Assembly (NCBI GenBank): GCA_018647605.1
Contig: JABGSU010000052.1
Location: 1-32,082, forward strand
From: Flavobacteriaceae bacterium
Lineage (GTDB): Bacteria; Bacteroidota; Bacteroidia; Flavobacteriales; Flavobacteriaceae
Length of the DNA stretch: 32,082 nt
Direction of reading: 5' to 3'
This document shows, piece after piece, positions 801 to 10,455 of this stretch. Every line of letters begins with the position of its first letter. Position 1 is the stretch's first letter. The notes beneath the pieces were generated by a model. The model was not told the origin of the DNA. It saw nothing but the letters and a program-made list of their open reading frames with translations, and did not search any database. Position numbers and translations under genes: made by a program.

Positions 801-3479
801 TTATATTAAATTTGGATTGAGCCACTTTCGGGCTTCTTCTATGGGGATATTTCTTCTTTTACTATAGTCTATCAATTGATCTTCTTTGATTTTACCTAAG
901 CCAAAGTACTTGGCTTCGGGATGGGCAAAATAATACCCAGAGACGGAAGCGGCAGGCCACATAGCATAACTTTCGGTCAAGGTTACCCCAATGTTTTTTT
1001 CTACATCCATCAGATCCCAAAGGGTTTGTTTTTCCAAATGATCAGGACAAGCAGGATAGCCTGGTGCTGGCCGTATCCCTTTGTAACGCTCTTTGATCAA
1101 CTCTTCGTTTGTAAGACTTTCCTCTGGAGAAAACCCCCAGTAGCGTATTCTAATTTCTCGGTGAAGAAATTCGGCAAAAGCCTCTGCCAATCGATCGGCC
1201 AGAGCCTTGATCATAATGCTGTTATAATCGTCATTTTCCTTTTCAAAGCGTTCAGCAATTTCTTGAACACCAAATCCAGTTGAGACACAAAAAGTACCGA
1301 TATAGTCTTTTACGCCTTTTGCTTTTGGAGCTACAAAATCTGCTAGAGCTAAGTTGGGTTGACCCGCCCTTTTTTGAAGTTGTTGTCGTAAAGTAATCAA
1401 CCGAAACTTCTCTTGTTTGATGTTATCAGTATCATAAATCAGAATATCGTCTTCTTCACTATTGGCGGGAAAGAGACCAAAACAGGCTTTTGCAATCAAC
1501 CACTTTTCATCAAATATTTTTTGAAGCATATTTTGGGCGTCAATAAATAAAGAGGTCGCTTCCTGTCCTACGATTTCATCGTTTAAAATGTCTGGATATT
1601 TGCCATGTAAATCCCAGGAACGAAAAAAAGGACTCCAATCAATATAGGAGATCAATTGCTGTAAATCTTGATCTTCAATGGTTTTTAATCCTAATGATTT
1701 TGGAACAACAGGTCGAAATACTTCCCAGTCGATACTGTATTTTCTATTTCGAGCTGTTTTCAAATCAATATATGACTTGGAGGAAATACGGTCTAAAAAT
1801 TTCTCTCGAAATGATTGGTATTCAGCTGCAATTTCTGCGGTATAAATTTTATTTTTATTTTCACTCAATAATTTATTGACAATCGTAACTGCTCGAGAGG
1901 CATCGTTGACATGGATGATAGGCGAATTACCTTGAGGAGCAATTTTAACTGCAGTGTGAGCCTTTGATGTGGTCGCTCCACCGATCAAAAGTGGAATTTT
2001 AAGCCCGATACGGTTCATCTCTTTAGCCACATAAACCATTTCGTCTAGTGATGGTGTAATCAATCCTGATAGACCAATAACATCGACATTTTCTTCTTGT
2101 GCTTTCTGCAAAATCAATTCGGGAGGTACCATTACTCCGAGGTCAATGATTTCGAAATTATTACAAGCCAAAACCACACTGACAATGTTCTTTCCAATGT
2201 CGTGAACATCTCCCTTGACTGTTGCCATCAATACTTTTCCTGAATATTCCATCAAGCCTGTTTTTTCAGCTTCTATAAAAGGTTGTAAATGAGCCACCGC
2301 CTTTTTCATAACCCGTGCAGATTTGACTACTTGAGGCAAAAACATTTTTCCAGAGCCAAATAAATCTCCTACTACATTCATCCCTGCCATTAAGTTGTTT
2401 TCAATAACGTGAAGGGGACGAAGGGTCGCAAGTCTTGCTTCCTCAACATCTTCGATGATGTGCCGGTCTATACCTTTAACAAGGGCGTGGGTTATTCGGG
2501 TTTGTAAGTCTTCATTTCGCCAAGCTTGTTCTTGCTCCTTTGACTCTTTTTTATTCCCTTTGATACTTTCAGCATAATTCAACAAAGCCTCGGTTGCATC
2601 TTCTTTTCGATTAAGCAATACGTCTTCCACCCTTTCAAGCAATGGTTCTGGAATTTCGTCATAAACCTCGAGAAGAGTTGGGTTAACAATTCCCATGTTC
2701 ATACCATGTTGAATGGCATGGTATAAAAAGGAGGAATGCATTGCTTCTCTGACTGCATTATTTCCCCTAAAAGAAAAAGAGACGTTACTTACACCTCCAC
2801 TGACATTGGCATAAGGAAGATTTTCTCGAATCCATTTAGTGGCCAAAAAGAAATCCAGAGCATTTCTTTTATGTTCGTCCATTCCTGTCGCTACAGGAAA
2901 AATATTGGGATCAAAAATAATATCTTCTGGAGGGAAATTAACCTTATCAACCAAAATTCTGTAGGATCGTTCACAGATTTGAATTCTCCTTTCAAAATTA
3001 TCTGCTTGCCCGTCTTCATCAAAAGCCATGACAACAACTGCAGCTCCATATAATTTTACTTTCTGAGCCTGCTCAATAAAGGTGGATTCTCCTTCCTTTA
3101 AACTGATAGAATTGACGACACTTTTACCTTGTACGACCTTGAGTCCTGCCTCGATTATTTCCCATTTGGAGCTATCAATCATTACTGGTACACGAGCAAT
3201 ATCTGGTTCTGCACCAATCAGGTTCAAGAATTTAACCATGGCTGCTTTTCCATCGATCATCCCCTCGTCCATATTGACATCAATAATTTGTGCTCCCCCT
3301 TCTACTTGTTCTAAAGCTACTTCGACCGCTACCTCATAATTTCCTGATTCAATTAACCTCAAAAATTTTCTAGAACCCGTTACATTGGTACGTTCTCCAA
3401 TATTGATAAAGTTAGTTTCAGGTGAAACTACCAAAGACTCTTGACCAGAAAGCGTTAAGTATCGGTTGGAGTTATGCAT
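801..3479 (-). CDS. metH: Methionine synthase, C-terminal part (pterin-binding, B12-binding and activation domains)
   Basis: Motifs include [16 protein letters not shown] (pterin), [36 protein letters not shown] (B12 DxHxxG) and the activation domain ending YFGLGKI. The internal ATG at 3479 (MHNSNRYL) is preferred to the ORF-track start at 3530 because it gives an 8-nt overlap with the upstream gene. Confidence 0.92.
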
Positions 3480-4473
3480 GGTATGGAATTTGGGGCTTTC
3501 TGGGCTTTGCCTTGGAGGCGACTTCGGCAATTAGACGAATGTGATCTGGAGTGGTGCCACAACACCCTCCCACAATATTGATCAAGTTTTGATCCAGAAA
3601 TTGCTCAATCAATACAGCCATTTCTTGTGGGGTTTGATCATACTCACCAAAAGCATTGGGCAAACCAGCATTGGGGTGAATCGAGGTGTGAAAGGGTGTC
3701 AGCTTTGACAATCTCTTCAAATAGGGATGGAGTTGACTAGCACCCAAAGCACAGTTAAATCCCATACTAATAAGGGGAATATGGGAAACAGAAATGGCAA
3801 AGGCTTCTACGGTTTGACCCGACAAAGTCCTTCCACTTTTGTCTGTTATGGTTCCACTCACCATTATCGGTAAGTTTATTTTTTTCTCTTGATAATAGTC
3901 TTGAATCCCAAAAAGTGCGGCTTTGGCATTAAGAGTATCAAAAATGGTTTCAACCAAAAGTAAATCAGCACCTCCCTCAACCAATCCAGCTACTTGTTCT
4001 CGATAAGCATCAAAAAGTTCATCGAAGCTGACCGCACGAAAACCTGGATCATTCACATCTGGCGACATGCTGGCGGTCTTGTTGGTAGGTCCAATAGCAC
4101 CAGCAACAAATCTTGGTTTGTCTGGGTTTTGAGTCGTTATTTTTTGAGCAGTTTCCTTAGCTATTTTTGCTGACTCATAATTGAGCTCATAAGCCAAATC
4201 TTCCATTTGATAATCTGCCATAGCAATGGAAGTAGAAGAAAAAGTGTTGGTTTCGATGATATCAGCACCCGCCAGAAGATATTGTTCATGAATGTTTCTG
4301 ATGGCATTGGGTTGGGTAATGGATAATAGATCGTTATTGCCCCCCAAGGGGCAGGGATGATCTATGAACCGATCTCCTCTAAATTGTTCCTCAGAGAGTT
4401 CTAGTCTTTGGATCATCGTGCCCATGGCACCATCTAAAACTAAAATTCTTTCGTTTAAGATATCCTTTATCAT
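3472..4473 (-). CDS. metH: Methionine synthase, N-terminal homocysteine-binding domain (separate polypeptide)
   Basis: [24 protein letters not shown] and the zinc-ligand motif [14 protein letters not shown]. The protein ends where the pterin domain would begin. Confidence 0.9.
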
Positions 4474-4476
4474 CTG

Positions 4477-5646
4477 TTAAATTTTTTCCAAAGCCTGATC
4501 AATGTCTTGTTTGATATCTTCTATATTCTCCAAACCAACAGAAAGTCGTATTAAACCATCTGTGATGCCCACTAGGGCTCTTTCCTCTATAGAAAGTTTA
4601 CTGTGGGTAGAAGTTGCTGGATGAGTAACAATGGTTCTGGTGTCTCCTAAATTGGCACTAAGAGAGCACATCTGAATTTGATTTAGAAAAACTTGCGCTG
4701 CTTTAATGCCCTCTTTGAGTTCAAAAGTAACAATATTCCCGCCTTTAAGCATTTGCTTCTTAGCGATTTCGTATTGGGGGTGGGATGTTAAAAAGGGATA
4801 TTTTACTTTGCAGATTTTGGGCTGATTTTCCAAGTGTTTTGACAATGCCAATGCATTCTCACAGTGACGATCCAAACGAACGGCTAGTGTCTCTATACTT
4901 TTGGAAAGCACCCAAGCATTGAATGGAGATAATGCAGAACCTGAATTTCGAAAAAAGGGTCTTATCTCATTTATCAAATCTGACTCCCCTACAATCAATC
5001 CACCCAAAACCCTGCCTTGTCCATCGATAAGCTTGGTCGCTGAATGAATGACCAAATCGGCACCAAATACTATAGGTTTTTGTAGGTAGGGTGTTGCAAA
5101 ACAGTTGTCCACCACCAAAAGGATATTGTTGTTTTTGGCTACTTCTGATAGATACTCCATGTCAAGGACATCCAAACCCGGATTGGTAGGAGTTTCTATA
5201 TAAATGATCTTGGTATTTGGTTGAATTACTGTTTCAACTTCTTGGGGTGTATTGGCATTGAAATAAGTAGTTTCGATATTCCATTTGTTAAAATATTTTG
5301 TAAAAAGAGAATGAGTGGATCCAAAGATTGATCTTGCGGAAACAACATGATCTCCACTGCTAAGCAAAGCTGCAAAACTAGCGAATACAGCTGCCATTCC
5401 CGAGGCAAAAGCAATACCCTCCTCTGCCCCTTCGAGGGTACATATTTTGTCAACTAATTCCTCGGTGTTGGGATTGGTGAATCGGCTGTAAATATTACGA
5501 TCAAACTCATCGGCAAAAGCGGCTCTCAACTCCTCAGCATCCTCAAAAACAAAACTTGAGGTCAAATAGAGTGGAGCCGAATGTTCGGCATATTGAGATC
5601 GCTCCATTTGTGTTCTTATGGCTTCAGTTTCAAAGTGTTTTTTCAT
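4477..5646 (-). CDS. Cys/Met-metabolism PLP enzyme, O-succinylhomoserine sulfhydrylase (MetZ)-like
   Basis: YSRFTNPNTEELVDKICTLEGAEEGIAFASGMAA and the PLP lysine in DLVIHSATKLIDGQGRVLGG. ATGA overlap with the upstream osmC-like gene. Confidence 0.85.
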   Translation of the reverse strand: MKKHFETEAIRTQMERSQYAEHSAPLYLTSSFVFEDAEELRAAFADEFDRNIYSRFTNPNTEELVDKICTLEGAEEGIAFASGMAAVFASFAALLSSGDHVVSARSIFGSTHSLFTKYFNKWNIETTYFNANTPQEVETVIQPNTKIIYIETPTNPGLDVLDMEYLSEVAKNNNILLVVDNCFATPYLQKPIVFGADLVIHSATKLIDGQGRVLGGLIVGESDLINEIRPFFRNSGSALSPFNAWVLSKSIETLAVRLDRHCENALALSKHLENQPKICKVKYPFLTSHPQYEIAKKQMLKGGNIVTFELKEGIKAAQVFLNQIQMCSLSANLGDTRTIVTHPATSTHSKLSIEERALVGITDGLIRLSVGLENIEDIKQDIDQALEKI

Positions 5647-6068
5647 AATTTTTTCCCATTAAGAAAAATGGAGTATTTAATTGGAGTTGAAAAAGATAGG
5701 GTTTTGGCTACAGAGCAATATTTGTCAAAAGAGAGACTAACGGCTCTTTTGGCTTTTTCAGCAGCGATGTCGCCTTCGAGCTTAATATCAACCTGAATTT
5801 TATAAAACAATGAAGGAACTTGATCGGGCAATCGATATCCTTCAACATCCATTTTAAGATCAGTAGGATTAATCTTTTGTTTGTTGAGAATAGCAATAAT
5901 ATCTATACTACTGCAACCTGCAAGACCCATCAAAAGAAGTTCCATGGGACCAACGCCCTCCACTTTTCCTTCTTTTTTGGATTTGTTATCCAATAAAACT
6001 TTGTGACCGTTGTCGTTGTGTACTTCAAAAAGGTAGTCTTGATTAACTCTGTTAAGACTTACTTTCAT
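5643..6068 (-). CDS. OsmC/Ohr-family protein
   Basis: GVGPMELLLMGLAGCSSIDIIAIL and SFDKYCSVAKTL match the two-Cys OsmC pattern. Located inside the met operon. Confidence 0.87.
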   Translation of the reverse strand: MKVSLNRVNQDYLFEVHNDNGHKVLLDNKSKKEGKVEGVGPMELLLMGLAGCSSIDIIAILNKQKINPTDLKMDVEGYRLPDQVPSLFYKIQVDIKLEGDIAAEKAKRAVSLSFDKYCSVAKTLSFSTPIKYSIFLNGKKL

Positions 6069-6074
6069 TTGTTT

Positions 6075-7052
6075 TTAGATAAGTTGATTGGGGTTGAATA
6101 TGCCACTCAGAATTTGTGACACAGCATCATTTTCTATCAAAAAAGCATCGTGTCCATGAATGGATTTAATTTCATGATAAAAAATATTTTCTTTTACTTT
6201 TTTTCCTCTTCTATGGGTTTTTCGGTCTTCCTCTGCAGTGAAAAAGAGGTCGCTTTCAATGGCAATCAAATGAATATTAGAAGTAATGGATTCAATAATA
6301 TGTTCCAGCGTATCTCCTTTTCTGGTTATATCAACAGATGCCAATAAATGATTCATCGTTTTATAGGCTTGCAAGAGAAATCGACTTTGTAATTTGTCAC
6401 CATGGTGAATAAGCCAACTTTCAACATTGAATATGTTTTTGTCCTTGTTAAAAGTTCTGTCAAATCGTTCAGTAAAGGAGGAAGGAGTTCGATAGGTTAA
6501 CATCGCATGAATCCGCGCATCCCTCAAAGGTTGTTTTGAGTTTTCTAAAAGCCTTTTTTGGAGATAGGTGTTGGCAATGATCCAATCGGAAGCTTTCCAA
6601 TCGGCCGCAACAGGAATCAGATTTTTAGTCAAGGAGGGGTATAAAGCCGCCATCTCCCATGCAATGCCTCCCCCTATTGATCCTCCAATCAGTGCAAATA
6701 GTTTTTGTATTCCTAGTATTTGCAATCCCTCAAAGAAAATTTCTGCAATATCTCCAGTATGAAAACCATCATATTGATCAAGGGTGTAATCATTTACGCC
6801 ATTACCAGGAATATTAAATGCAAGGATTGCAAAATGATTGGTGTCAATGGTGAGGTTGGGGCCTACAACTTTAGTCCACCACCCCTTTGGACCGGCAACA
6901 TTGGCATCACCGGTCAAGGAATGATTGATGAGTACTACAGGTGCTTGATCAAATGCCTGACCAAAATGCTGATAGTGTATGTCTATCTGTTCATAGACAG
7001 CTCCTGAATCTGTAGTAAAATCCTTTACGGAAATTGTTTTAACCTCAGTCAT
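6075..7052 (-). CDS. metX: Homoserine O-acetyltransferase
   Basis: Alpha/beta hydrolase with LINHSLTGDANVAGPKGWW, nucleophile region LIGGSIGGGIAWEMA and C-terminal IKSIHGHDAFLIE. Confidence 0.9.
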   Translation of the reverse strand: MTEVKTISVKDFTTDSGAVYEQIDIHYQHFGQAFDQAPVVLINHSLTGDANVAGPKGWWTKVVGPNLTIDTNHFAILAFNIPGNGVNDYTLDQYDGFHTGDIAEIFFEGLQILGIQKLFALIGGSIGGGIAWEMAALYPSLTKNLIPVAADWKASDWIIANTYLQKRLLENSKQPLRDARIHAMLTYRTPSSFTERFDRTFNKDKNIFNVESWLIHHGDKLQSRFLLQAYKTMNHLLASVDITRKGDTLEHIIESITSNIHLIAIESDLFFTAEEDRKTHRRGKKVKENIFYHEIKSIHGHDAFLIENDAVSQILSGIFNPNQLI

Positions 7053-7061
7053 TGAGATGGA

Positions 7062-8333
7062 TTAAATTGCTTTTAGCGCTTTGTCCAAATCTTCTTTTAA
7101 ATCCTCTACATTTTCGATTCCCACTGAGATTCTAACCAAGTCAGAAGACACACCCGTACTGGCTTGTTCTTCCTCATTTAACTGAGAATGGGTTGTACTA
7201 GAAGGATGAATGATCAAAGATTTGGTATCACCAATGTTAGCCAAAAGCGAAAAAATCTCGGTGCTTTCGGTAACCTTCTTTGCTGCTTCAAATCCTTTTT
7301 TCAGACCAAAAGTTACAATACCACTTTTTCCGTTGGGTAAGTACTTTTGAGCCAAATCTGCATATTTAGAAGATTCTAGTCCAGGATAATTTACCCAACT
7401 AACTTCGTCTCTGGATTGCAACCATTGGGCAAGTTCCAAAGCATTGTCAGAATGTTTTTGCATTCTCACTTCTAAAGTTTCCAATCCTTGAATAACTTGG
7501 AAACTATTCAATGGACTGGGGGCACTCCCCAGGTCTCTGAGACCCTCAATTCTCACCCTTGCAATAAAGGCAATTGGACCCAACACATCATGATACTTCA
7601 ACCCATGGTAGGATGGAGAAGGCTCTGTAAACTCGGGGAAATTCCCGTTGGAATAGTCAAAAGTTCCTGCATCGATGATCACTCCACCAATGGTTGTTCC
7701 ATTTCCTGTGATGTATTTGGTCAAAGAGTGGATAACGATATTGGCACCGTGTTCGATAGGATTCAATAATGCTGGTGTAGCGATAGTATTGTCTACTATA
7801 AAAGGTACTTTAGCTGCTTTTGCATGTTCACTTATCGATTTCAAATCCAGCACATCCAATTTAGGATTTCCCAATGATTCAGCAAAAAATGCTCTGGTAT
7901 TGGGCTGAACAGCTTTGGTGAAATTCTCAACATCATCTGGATCAACAAATGTTGTCGTAATTCCAAAACGAGGTAAAGTATTGTTCAACATATTATAAGT
8001 TCCTCCATACAAACTGTTGGAGGCTACAATATGGTCCCCTGCTTTGAGCAACGTCATGAATGTTGTAGCAATTGCGGCTGTCCCGGATGCAGTGGCAACT
8101 GCAGCTACCCCCCCCTCAATGGCTGCCAATCGTTGTTCGAGGACATCGTTAGTAGGGTTGTTCAATCGAGTATATATGTATCCTGCCTCTGTCAATGCAA
8201 ATAGGTTGGCTGCATGATCAGAGTCATTAAACACATAGGAGGATGTTTGATAAATGGGAACGGCTCTCGTTCCTTGTGTTTTTGTCACGTCATGCCCAGC
8301 ATGAAGTGCATTGGTTGCTAATTTTAGGCTCAT
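7062..8333 (-). CDS. metY: O-acetylhomoserine sulfhydrylase
   Basis: [53 protein letters not shown] and the PLP lysine in [25 protein letters not shown] overlap with metK. Confidence 0.9.
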
Positions 8334-9586
8334 AATTTAAAGGTGTTTTTAATTGTATTCAAATAATCAAGTTTTTCCCAGGTGAAAAGTTCAACTGTTT
8401 TTTCTACCCTACCACTGTAGGGCGATTCAAAAACTTTAGTAATTACTTGGGGATGTCTTCCCATATGACCATAAGCAGCTGTTTCAAGATAAATGGGGTT
8501 TCGGAGTTTAAGTCTGTTTTCAATAGCATAAGGTCGGAGGTCAAAAATTTCACTAACCTTTTCTGCAATTTCAGGATCGGAAAGTGAAACTTTGGAAGTG
8601 TTGTAGGTGTTGATATTAATAGAAGTTGGTTCCACCACGCCAATGGCATAACTCAACTGAACTAAAATTTCCTTGGCTACGCCAGCTGCTACAAGATTTT
8701 TGGCAATATGCCTTGCTGCATATGCAGCACTACGGTCTACCTTACTGGGGTCTTTTCCACTGAAAGCACCTCCACCATGTGCTCCTTTTCCACCATAGGT
8801 GTCCACAATTATTTTTCTTCCTGTCAATCCAGTATCACCATGAGGCCCACCGATTACAAATTTTCCTGTAGGATTTATATGGTAGGTAATATCATTGTGG
8901 AATAATTTTTTGATGTGCGCAGGCTCTTGATCCATAACTTTTTGAATAACAATATTGATGATGTCACTTTTAATTTTTTCTAACATCTTTTTATCGTCAT
9001 CCAAAAACTGATCGTGTTGTGTTGATACCACTATAGTATCTATACGTAGGGGTTGACCATCATTGCTGTACTCAATGGTAACTTGAGATTTTGAATCGGG
9101 ACGTAAATAAGTAATTTCTCTGTTTTCCCTTCTGATATTGGCCAATTCAATCAAAATTTTGTGAGATAAATCTAGAGCCAATGGAATGTGGTTTTCGGTT
9201 TCATCGGTTGCATAACCAAACATGATTCCTTGATCACCAGCACCTTGATTTTCTTTTTCATCTCTGTCCACTCCGCGATTAATATCTTGAGACTGCTCAT
9301 GTATCAGTGATATTACTCCACATGAATTACCACTAAACTGATATTCGTCTTTAGTATAACCAATACGATTGATGGTTTCGCGAGCAATGGTTTGGACATC
9401 GAGATAAGTGTTACTTTTAACCTCTCCCGCCAGAATGGCCTGTCCTGTGGTGACAAGTGTTTCGCAAGCTACCTTGCTGTCAGAATCAAAGGCAATAAAA
9501 TTATCTAATAGGGCATCACTGATTTGATCCGATACCTTATCAGGATGGCCTTCGCTTACAGATTCTGAAGTAAAAAAATAAGACAT
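8330..9586 (-). CDS. metK: S-adenosylmethionine synthetase
   Basis: [42 protein letters not shown] and [29 protein letters not shown]. Confidence 0.97.
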
Positions 9587-9590
9587 AAAG

Positions 9591-9633
9591 TTGCTTTATT
9601 AGGGGATTTGACAAAGTACGTCTTAAAGCAACA
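9591..9633 (-). promoter_or_regulatory. Candidate riboswitch expression platform upstream of metK
   Basis: Minus-strand TTGCTTTA (9624-9631) can pair with aptamer TAAAGCA (9635-9641) or with TAAAGCAA (9591-9598) next to the ATG. GTCAAATCC (9604-9612) is complementary to aptamer GGATTTGAC (9667-9675). Confidence 0.6.
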
Positions 9634-9684
9634 CTGCTTTAGCATTTTTTTAAGAGGTTGCAATCAGTCAAATCCTTCCTCGAT
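9634..9684 (-). ncRNA. SAM-II (SAM-alpha) riboswitch aptamer
   Basis: Minus strand reads CGAGGAAGGATTTGACTGATTGCAACCTCTTAAAAAAATGCTAAAGCAG. It has the SAM-II core GATTTGA..GATTGCAACC..TTAAAAAAATGCTAAAGC, with a GAGG/CCTC P1 stem. It lies directly upstream of metK. Recognised by eye; no covariance search was run. Confidence 0.88.
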
Positions 9685-9691
9685 TATTTTA

Positions 9692-9699
9692 CAAATGTA
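9692..9699 (-). promoter_or_regulatory. Putative Bacteroidota -7 box (TACATTTG) for the met operon
   Basis: Matches TAnnTTTG. A start site ~6 nt downstream would place the 5' end of the transcript at the edge of the SAM-II aptamer. A TTGAC lies further upstream but with long spacing (28 nt). Confidence 0.5.
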
Positions 9700-9840
9700 T
9701 TACTAATTTTTAAATTATAAAAAAAAAGTCAATATTAATAGATGGAAATCAAGTTTGATTGATATCCAAAAAAAATCAGCTATTTAAAAAGTCTTCGAAA
9801 ACAAAAAAGTAATTATCTTAACCCCAGCAAAAAGTTAAAA

Positions 9841-10455
9841 ATGTATTTCGCAATTGCGGGTAATATTGGCGCAGGTAAAACCAGTTTAGCAGAACTGCTC
9901 TCTAAAAATTATGATTGGGAAGCTCACTACGAGGATGTGATTGATAATCCTTATCTGGATGACTTCTACAATCATATGGAACGGTGGTCTTTCAATCTTC
10001 AAGTCTATTTTTTGAACAGCAGATTTCGTCAATTGAAGAATTTTAGAAATTCTAATAAAAACTTTATTCAAGATCGTACTATCTACGAGGACGCTCACAT
10101 TTTTGCTCCCAACCTGCATGCAATGGGTCTGATGAATCAAAGAGACTTTAATAATTACCAGTCGTTATTTGAGCTGATGGAGTCTATGGTACAAGGCCCA
10201 GATATGCTCATTTATCTTAGAAGTAGTATCCCTAATTTAGTGAGTAAAATCCATAAAAGAGGCAGAGAATATGAAAATTCAATCAGCATAGAGTACTTAA
10301 GTCGTTTGAATGAAAGATACGAGGCTTGGGTTTCAACTTATCAAAAGGGAAAATTATTGATCGTTGACGTCGATAAAATAGATTTTGTCGAAAATAAGGA
10401 AGATTTAGGTCAGATCATTGAGAAAATCGACGCTGAATTAAACGGTCTGTTTTAA
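9841..10455 (+). CDS. Deoxynucleoside kinase family protein
   Basis: P-loop MYFAIAGNIGAGKTSLAELL, then QDRTIYEDAHIFAPNLHAMG and the lid-like KRGREYENSI. Confidence 0.92.
   Translation: MYFAIAGNIGAGKTSLAELLSKNYDWEAHYEDVIDNPYLDDFYNHMERWSFNLQVYFLNSRFRQLKNFRNSNKNFIQDRTIYEDAHIFAPNLHAMGLMNQRDFNNYQSLFELMESMVQGPDMLIYLRSSIPNLVSKIHKRGREYENSISIEYLSRLNERYEAWVSTYQKGKLLIVDVDKIDFVENKEDLGQIIEKIDAELNGLF

Follow-up and report, generated by a model that had tools for sequence, protein, structure and literature searches.

Little has been worked out about the way in which riboswitches govern translation in Bacteroidota, where ribosomes ignore Shine-Dalgarno (SD) sites. The question is raised by the metK leader in a 32,082-nt stretch of DNA (the window) from a member of the Flavobacteriaceae (assembly GCA_018647605.1, contig JABGSU010000052.1). 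Flavobacteria lack SD sites, and their initiation depends on structure near the start codon (PMC6847099); the suggestion of an initial annotation of this locus, that a SAM-II leader might act here without SD pairing, is in line with this. The features of the window that are relevant to the question are as follows.

9695-9702, minus strand: TACATTTG, fitting the TAnnTTTG consensus of the Bacteroidota -7 promoter box and placed 13 nt upstream of GAGG in P1
9629-9687, minus strand: SAM-II aptamer of the long-loop type (RF01726, cmscan 74.4 bits, E 7.3e-13)
9667-9675, minus strand: GGATTTGAC, segment of the aptamer 5' strand and L1, 5' strand of anti-aptamer helix A (exact complement of 9604-9612)
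9635-9641, minus strand: TAAAGCA, part of the aptamer tail and 5' strand of hairpin B (from the sequence)
9624-9631, minus strand: TTGCTTTA, switching strand complementary to the tail (anti-tail), which supplies the 5' strand of the start-sequestering helix C (from the sequence and the covariation of C)
9604-9612, minus strand: GTCAAATCC, anti-L1, 3' strand of helix A, inside the loop of helix C (from complementarity, folding and covariation)
9591-9598, minus strand: TAAAGCAA, copy of the tail element on the start side, forming the 3' strand of helix C and ending 4 nt short of the metK ATG (from the sequence)
8330-9586, minus strand: metK, coding for a methionine adenosyltransferase of 418 aa (TIGR01034 at 503.5 bits, cut-off 309.4)
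3472-8333, minus strand: rest of the methionine operon (from profile matches and gene order)
7062-8333, minus strand: O-acetylhomoserine sulfhydrylase of this operon
6075-7052, minus strand: MetX-like acyltransferase of this operon
5643-6068, minus strand: OsmC-like protein of this operon
4477-5646, minus strand: second sulfhydrylase of this operon
3472-4473, minus strand: homocysteine-methyltransferase half of MetH, in this operon

The SAM-II leader of metK proposed by the initial annotation was recovered by the Rfam search of the window. The score exceeds the gathering cut-off of 44 bits, the match is full-length (model positions 1-60, mean posterior 0.99), and P1 (GAGG 9681-9678 with CCTC 9657-9654, minus strand), the conserved L1 and the pseudoknot tail (GCTAAAGCAGT, 9643-9633, minus strand) are all present in the sequence and in the Rfam alignment. 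The aptamer lies 5' of metK, the first gene of a methionine operon (ATG at 9586-9584, minus strand), and nearly all family matches examined likewise precede metK. The RNA at 9629-9687 is a candidate sensor, expected from its sequence to bind SAM. The other SAM-II model, RF00521, was rejected as a model for these leaders, as it gave zero matches anywhere in the relatives searched; RF01726 is the right one. The consensus TAnnTTTG of the Bacteroidota -7 promoter box (PMC9723704) occurs within 75 nt of L1, upstream of the aptamer and mostly 9-16 nt before P1, in 214 of the 225 leaders analysed; because this box recurs so widely and lies 13 nt upstream of P1 in the window, the transcript probably starts just 5' of the aptamer.

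Read 5' to 3', the leader carries TAAAGCA (inside GCTAAAGCAG), TTGCTTTA, GTCAAATCC, TAAAGCAA, CTTT and the ATG. The coordinates given by the initial annotation for TAAAGCA, TTGCTTTA, TAAAGCAA and the start codon are all exact, and both pairings that it described exist: a 7-bp hairpin with a 4-nt loop (hairpin B, TAAAGCA 9641-9635 with TGCTTTA 9630-9624) and an 8-bp start-side helix, which G9632:C9590 lengthens to 9 bp (helix C, GTTGCTTTA 9632-9624 with TAAAGCAAC 9598-9590). A further exact complementarity had been overlooked, that of GGATTTGAC (9675-9667) with GTCAAATCC (9612-9604), which makes up the anti-aptamer helix A. Helices A and B nest, B and C share one 5' strand, and the 3' strand of A lies within the loop of C; A and C are therefore topologically crossed and compete. 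In the leaders L026, L029 and L030 the strands of A and C adjoin or overlap by one base, so that the two helices could hardly form there simultaneously. The bare 8-mer TAAAGCAA is not rare, with 6 occurrences in the window against 3 expected; the TTGCTTTA:TAAAGCAA duplex at the start codon outdoes all but 0.5% of shuffles of the window leader. Where 0.36 occurrences of the 9-mer GGATTTGAC/GTCAAATCC would be expected in the window, there are three, and the helix A pair itself accounts for two of them.

We consider it likely that the locus encodes a SAM-OFF translational riboswitch, in which a strand-exchange platform independent of SD sites is joined to a standard SAM-II aptamer. Computation gave the elements, the extent to which they are conserved and covary, and the predicted change of fold; that this RNA binds SAM, that translation is affected and in which direction, we infer. 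Without SAM, GTCAAATCC would pair with GGATTTGAC (helix A) and pull the aptamer apart, and TTGCTTTA would be held in an anti-aptamer fold; its main partner there would be the 3' strand of P1 with the A-rich linker (TCTTAAA:TTTAAGA), the aptamer tail (helix B) being a less frequent alternative. With the start region clear of TTGCTTTA, metK would be translated. With SAM, the aptamer would retain L1 and its tail and so block helix A, and TTGCTTTA would form helix C with TAAAGCAA by the start codon, keeping the 30S subunit from binding.

The distribution of these elements was followed in metK leaders collected from genome searches (242 leaders, 225 of them analysed). Matches to RF01726 were found in 376 of 400 genomes sampled from the family, in 19 of 22 genomes of the genus of the window and in 28 of 197 of the class. 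Of the 225 leaders, 47 clearly carry a start-side copy (TTGCTTT/AAAGCAA type), all of them from small marine Flavobacteriaceae; one more leader, L063, was added as the 48th in the comparison of shuffle z-scores, which leaves 177. All 19 RF01726 matches of the genus have the copy, among them two rows that contain Ns (L032, L041) and another truncated at a contig end (L044). Mapped on the MetK tree, the copy belongs to deep small-genome lineages; it is lacking in one small-genome clade (L001, L006) and in the crown, which includes Lacinutrix, Algibacter, Maribacter and Flagellimonas. The tree implies four label changes, two of which are the N-containing rows of the genus, scored as lacking the copy; since it is unrooted, gains and losses of the copy are not distinguishable on it. 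Helix C is absent elsewhere in the family among the 225 leaders and from the metY copies of SAM-II examined.

Where helix C is present, it is maintained by compensatory changes. In 44 distinct rows, 90.9% of its pairs are standard, and changes on both sides were seen at 5 of 10 pairs. Double-changed cells number 49 against 17.2 in shuffles, and the covariation score is 0.251 against 0.080 for shuffled and 0.005-0.052 for slid strands, the significance from shuffles being inflated by the phylogeny of the leaders. These counts come from a motif-anchored alignment, which leans slightly to pairing where more than one AAAGC is available; a whole-leader MAFFT alignment was avoided because spacer lengths differ. 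Variant pairs occur in L002 (UUGCUUUG/CAAAGCAA), L003 (UUGCUUUUA/UAAAAGCAA), L026 (UUGCUUUCA/UGAAAGCAA), L010 (UUUACUUUUUAG/CUAAAAAGUAAA) and L155 (UUGCUUUUG/CAAAAGCAA). Independent contrasts on the MetK tree run the same way on average in 5.4 of 6 cases at position -3 and in 3.2 of 4 and 2.9 of 3 at +5, with 0 opposite at either; with so few contrasts per position it is their consistency that counts, no single sign test being decisive. The mean z of the helix C duplex is -3.5 in the 48 leaders with L063 included and 0.02 in the rest of the family, where a start-side helix was sought and no general signal appeared. In 47 of 47 leaders the 3' end of the helix lies 1-10 nt before the ATG. The claim that TTGCTTTA can mask the start-side copy when the aptamer is occupied is supported by this conservation. 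The alignment of related leaders, proposed earlier as a check, thus cut both ways: helix C is conserved and covaries in 47 leaders, and the second copy is absent from 177 of the 225 that bear the aptamer, an outcome that the initial annotation had counted as a refutation. Because helix C covaries wherever it is present, we read this absence as limiting the generality of the device and not its function, the device being lineage-specific. A separate case is L150 (Euzebyella saccharophila), which has an unrelated 10-bp start-side helix, ACUUCUUUAG:CUAAAGAAGU (p 0.025 among the 225 leaders), within a crown lineage otherwise devoid of one; it may be due to chance or to an independent gain.

Helix A is family-wide, occurring in leaders with and without C, and the mean z of its duplex against shuffles is -2.6 where C is present and -2.0 in the other leaders. 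In its outer pair, the base immediately flanking the conserved GATTTGAC and the one that follows GTCRRATC covary over 89 leaders: G is matched by C in 27 of 37 and A by T in 35 of 48 (Fisher p 7e-11, with no correction for kinship), and independent contrasts on the MetK tree run the same way in 3.7 of 5 cases, with 0.1 opposite. The target of A moves along the aptamer between lineages, being GGAAGGATTTG, GGATTTGAC or GACTGATTGCA (the last in L155, L167 and L168). As different lineages aim the antisense strand at different parts of the aptamer, their sequences suggest selection for opposing the aptamer and not mere descent. Since 177 of the 225 leaders have A without C, helix C cannot be the way in which flavobacterial SAM-II leaders in general turn genes off. 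In L057, L061, L127 and many crown leaders we observed a second, CUUCUUUAGC-like anti-tail form, complementary to GCUAAAG of the tail and often placed after an extra variable stretch; the anti-L1 in these leaders is GCAATC-like instead of GTCAAATC.

Folding with and without the aptamer blocked, another check proposed earlier, gave the expected gain of C and a weak B. Over the 47 carriers, a free aptamer gives ensembles with 22 pairs of type A and 1.2 of type C, and a blocked one gives 10.3 of type C; a gain of at least 4 C pairs on blocking is predicted in 96% of the carriers against 38% of the rest. The leaders thus show what is expected of a strand-exchange platform, namely two mutually crossing helices, both conserved and covarying, with a predicted switch between them. 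Mean pairing of the region from -15 to +3 rises on blocking from 0.42 to 0.62 over the 47 leaders. In the free leader of the window, helix A has a probability of 0.99-1.0, B of 0.01 and C of 0, and blocking the aptamer (row L022) yields about 9 expected C pairs. Mean pairing of -15 to +3 in the window is not raised (0.59 free, 0.50 blocked), because the free fold has a local hairpin over the start; in this leader the predicted switch shows plainly in C itself but not in how accessible the start is overall. The free fold of the window has an energy of -25.7 kcal/mol, and that with C forced -20.4; SAM and the pseudoknot, both outside the energy model, could plausibly close this gap. In the free fold, TCTTAAA (9655-9649, the 3' strand of P1 and linker) pairs with TTTAAGA (9627-9621), so that it is P1 and the linker, and not the tail, that engage the 3' half of the switching strand.

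The exact model of the initial annotation, in which TTGCTTTA:TAAAGCA is the main SAM-free state and helix A is inessential, is improbable. It draws on B reaching 8-9 bp (G-U allowed) in 32 of the 47 C-bearing leaders, on adjacent strands that could let B form first during transcription, and on the strong B pairing of metY leaders such as GCUAAAGCAGAAGCUUU. Against this stand the near absence of B from the free ensemble of the window, where forcing it costs 4 kcal/mol, and the 8 of 47 carriers in which B falls to 5 bp or fewer while C has 9-10 bp; helix A, which dominates the free state, is present in all 8. Because A and C persist in these leaders, hairpin B is at best auxiliary for unmasking. 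Just as doubtful is transcription attenuation, in which SAM would cause termination, either intrinsic (helix C followed by a U-run in the first metK codons) or Rho-dependent (in a C-rich, G-poor leader). Proteobacterial SAM-II platforms are often terminators (PMC1273637, PMC2258182), a U-run of at least 6 near the start is found in 66% of leaders with C against 3% of those without, and the C/G ratio after the aptamer is 1.77 against about 0.77 in metK coding DNA. However, no terminator-like sites were found in 9300-9900 (0 sites), which leaves the terminator reading of this leader unsupported; the U7 of the window begins about 12 nt after helix C, and such a run is absent in a third of the C-bearing leaders. 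The C excess is equal with and without helix C and may merely reflect complementarity to the purine-rich aptamer. As for the U7 itself, it lies in Tyr-Phe-Phe codons (TAT TTT TTT, within 9585-9560, minus strand); its link to helix C is possibly one of shared ancestry only, and the run could pair with the A-rich linker of the aptamer.

Two other explanations dispense with strand exchange, and both are very unlikely. Direct occlusion, as in the metX SAM-II from the Sargasso Sea, is the established translational mode of the class (PMC10907184); the pseudoknot would hide the ribosome site, and the other elements would be incidental. Here, however, 46 nt separate the end of the aptamer tail from the ATG (41-62 nt among the carriers), there is no SD in the tail and no SD-like motif between tail and ATG, flavobacteria are not SD users (PMC6847099), and the compensatory changes conserving C and A argue against it. 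Alternatively, TAAAGCAA might be a single-stranded A-rich initiation enhancer (Kozak-like or an S1 site) and not a pairing partner, given that initiation in Flavobacterium johnsoniae benefits from A-rich sequence 5' of the start codon (PMC6847099). This hardly fits the covariation of TAAAGCAA with TTGCTTTA, which includes a G-C to A-U exchange and swaps at both ends of the helix, and the rest of the family starts metK without TAAAGCAA.

The proposed strand-exchange switch shares with the long-loop SAM-II described by Weinberg et al. (2010, PMC2864571; RF01726) the aptamer scoring above cut-off, the SAM-cycle gene and the occurrence in Bacteroidota. The Rfam model stops at the aptamer tail, and the paper itself, which leaves the details of this form to a supplement, gives no expression platform in its text, whereas a two-helix exchange platform is predicted here. 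With the Sargasso Sea metagenome metX and S. meliloti metA examples (PMC10907184, PMC9373788) the common feature would be SAM-OFF translational control; in those, an SD in or adjoining the pseudoknot is hidden directly, while here 46 nt lie between the aptamer and the start codon, SD sites are not used and the masking would fall to a separate helix. In terminator-type SAM-II (A. tumefaciens metA, S. meliloti metZ; PMC1273637, PMC9373788) the SAM-bound aptamer redirects a downstream strand, as it is predicted to do here, but the present leader has no terminator and its OFF hairpin ends by the start codon. The closest parallel in architecture is with strand-exchange translational riboswitches such as TPP (group 3 in PMC10907184), whose switching strand also alternates between aptamer and sequestering strand; these usually hide an SD, whereas the element masked here would be a copy of the aptamer tail by the ATG in SD-less bacteria. 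SAM-II is classed as direct occlusion in that review (PMC10907184), and its translational control in S. meliloti is SD-dependent (PMC9373788). Neither an anti-aptamer nor a start-side element for long-loop SAM-II was found in the open-access papers searched; the switching part has apparently not been described so far, and its novelty is provisional.

More broadly, and with somewhat less confidence than for the window itself, we favour a model of flavobacterial SAM-II in which the anti-aptamer is family-wide and the small-genome marine lineages add a tail copy by the metK start, to be closed by the strand that SAM releases, giving an SD-free strand exchange; leaders without the copy would need another OFF route. 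If true, part of the SAM-II class would shift from direct occlusion to strand exchange, and the motif would be lengthened by about 40 nt or more past the Rfam model. The model is backed by covariation and gives the exact bases for mutation. It also raises the question of how the majority with an anti-aptamer and no start-side copy is turned off; a Rho-dependent or mRNA-stability route is possible in the leaders without C (the 177 leaders and metY).

SAM-II leaders were also found before other genes. Eight of them (L019, L056, L090, L156, L174, L175, L181, L245) precede metY-like (O-acetylhomoserine sulfhydrylase-like) genes in related small genomes and combine a strong hairpin of the tail, GCTAAAGCAGAAGCTTT, with an anti-aptamer of the form GTCAAAT(C). 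As A and B are present in them and the start-side copy, and with it C, is not, the metK and metY copies of SAM-II appear from their sequences to use different platforms. In L008, L050, L064 and L086 the aptamer is located upstream of a gene for a QueF-like preQ1 synthase (TIGR03139 for L008). The ORFs downstream in L008 encode an unknown membrane-like protein and the start of MetH, and this queF thus appears to head a methionine operon.
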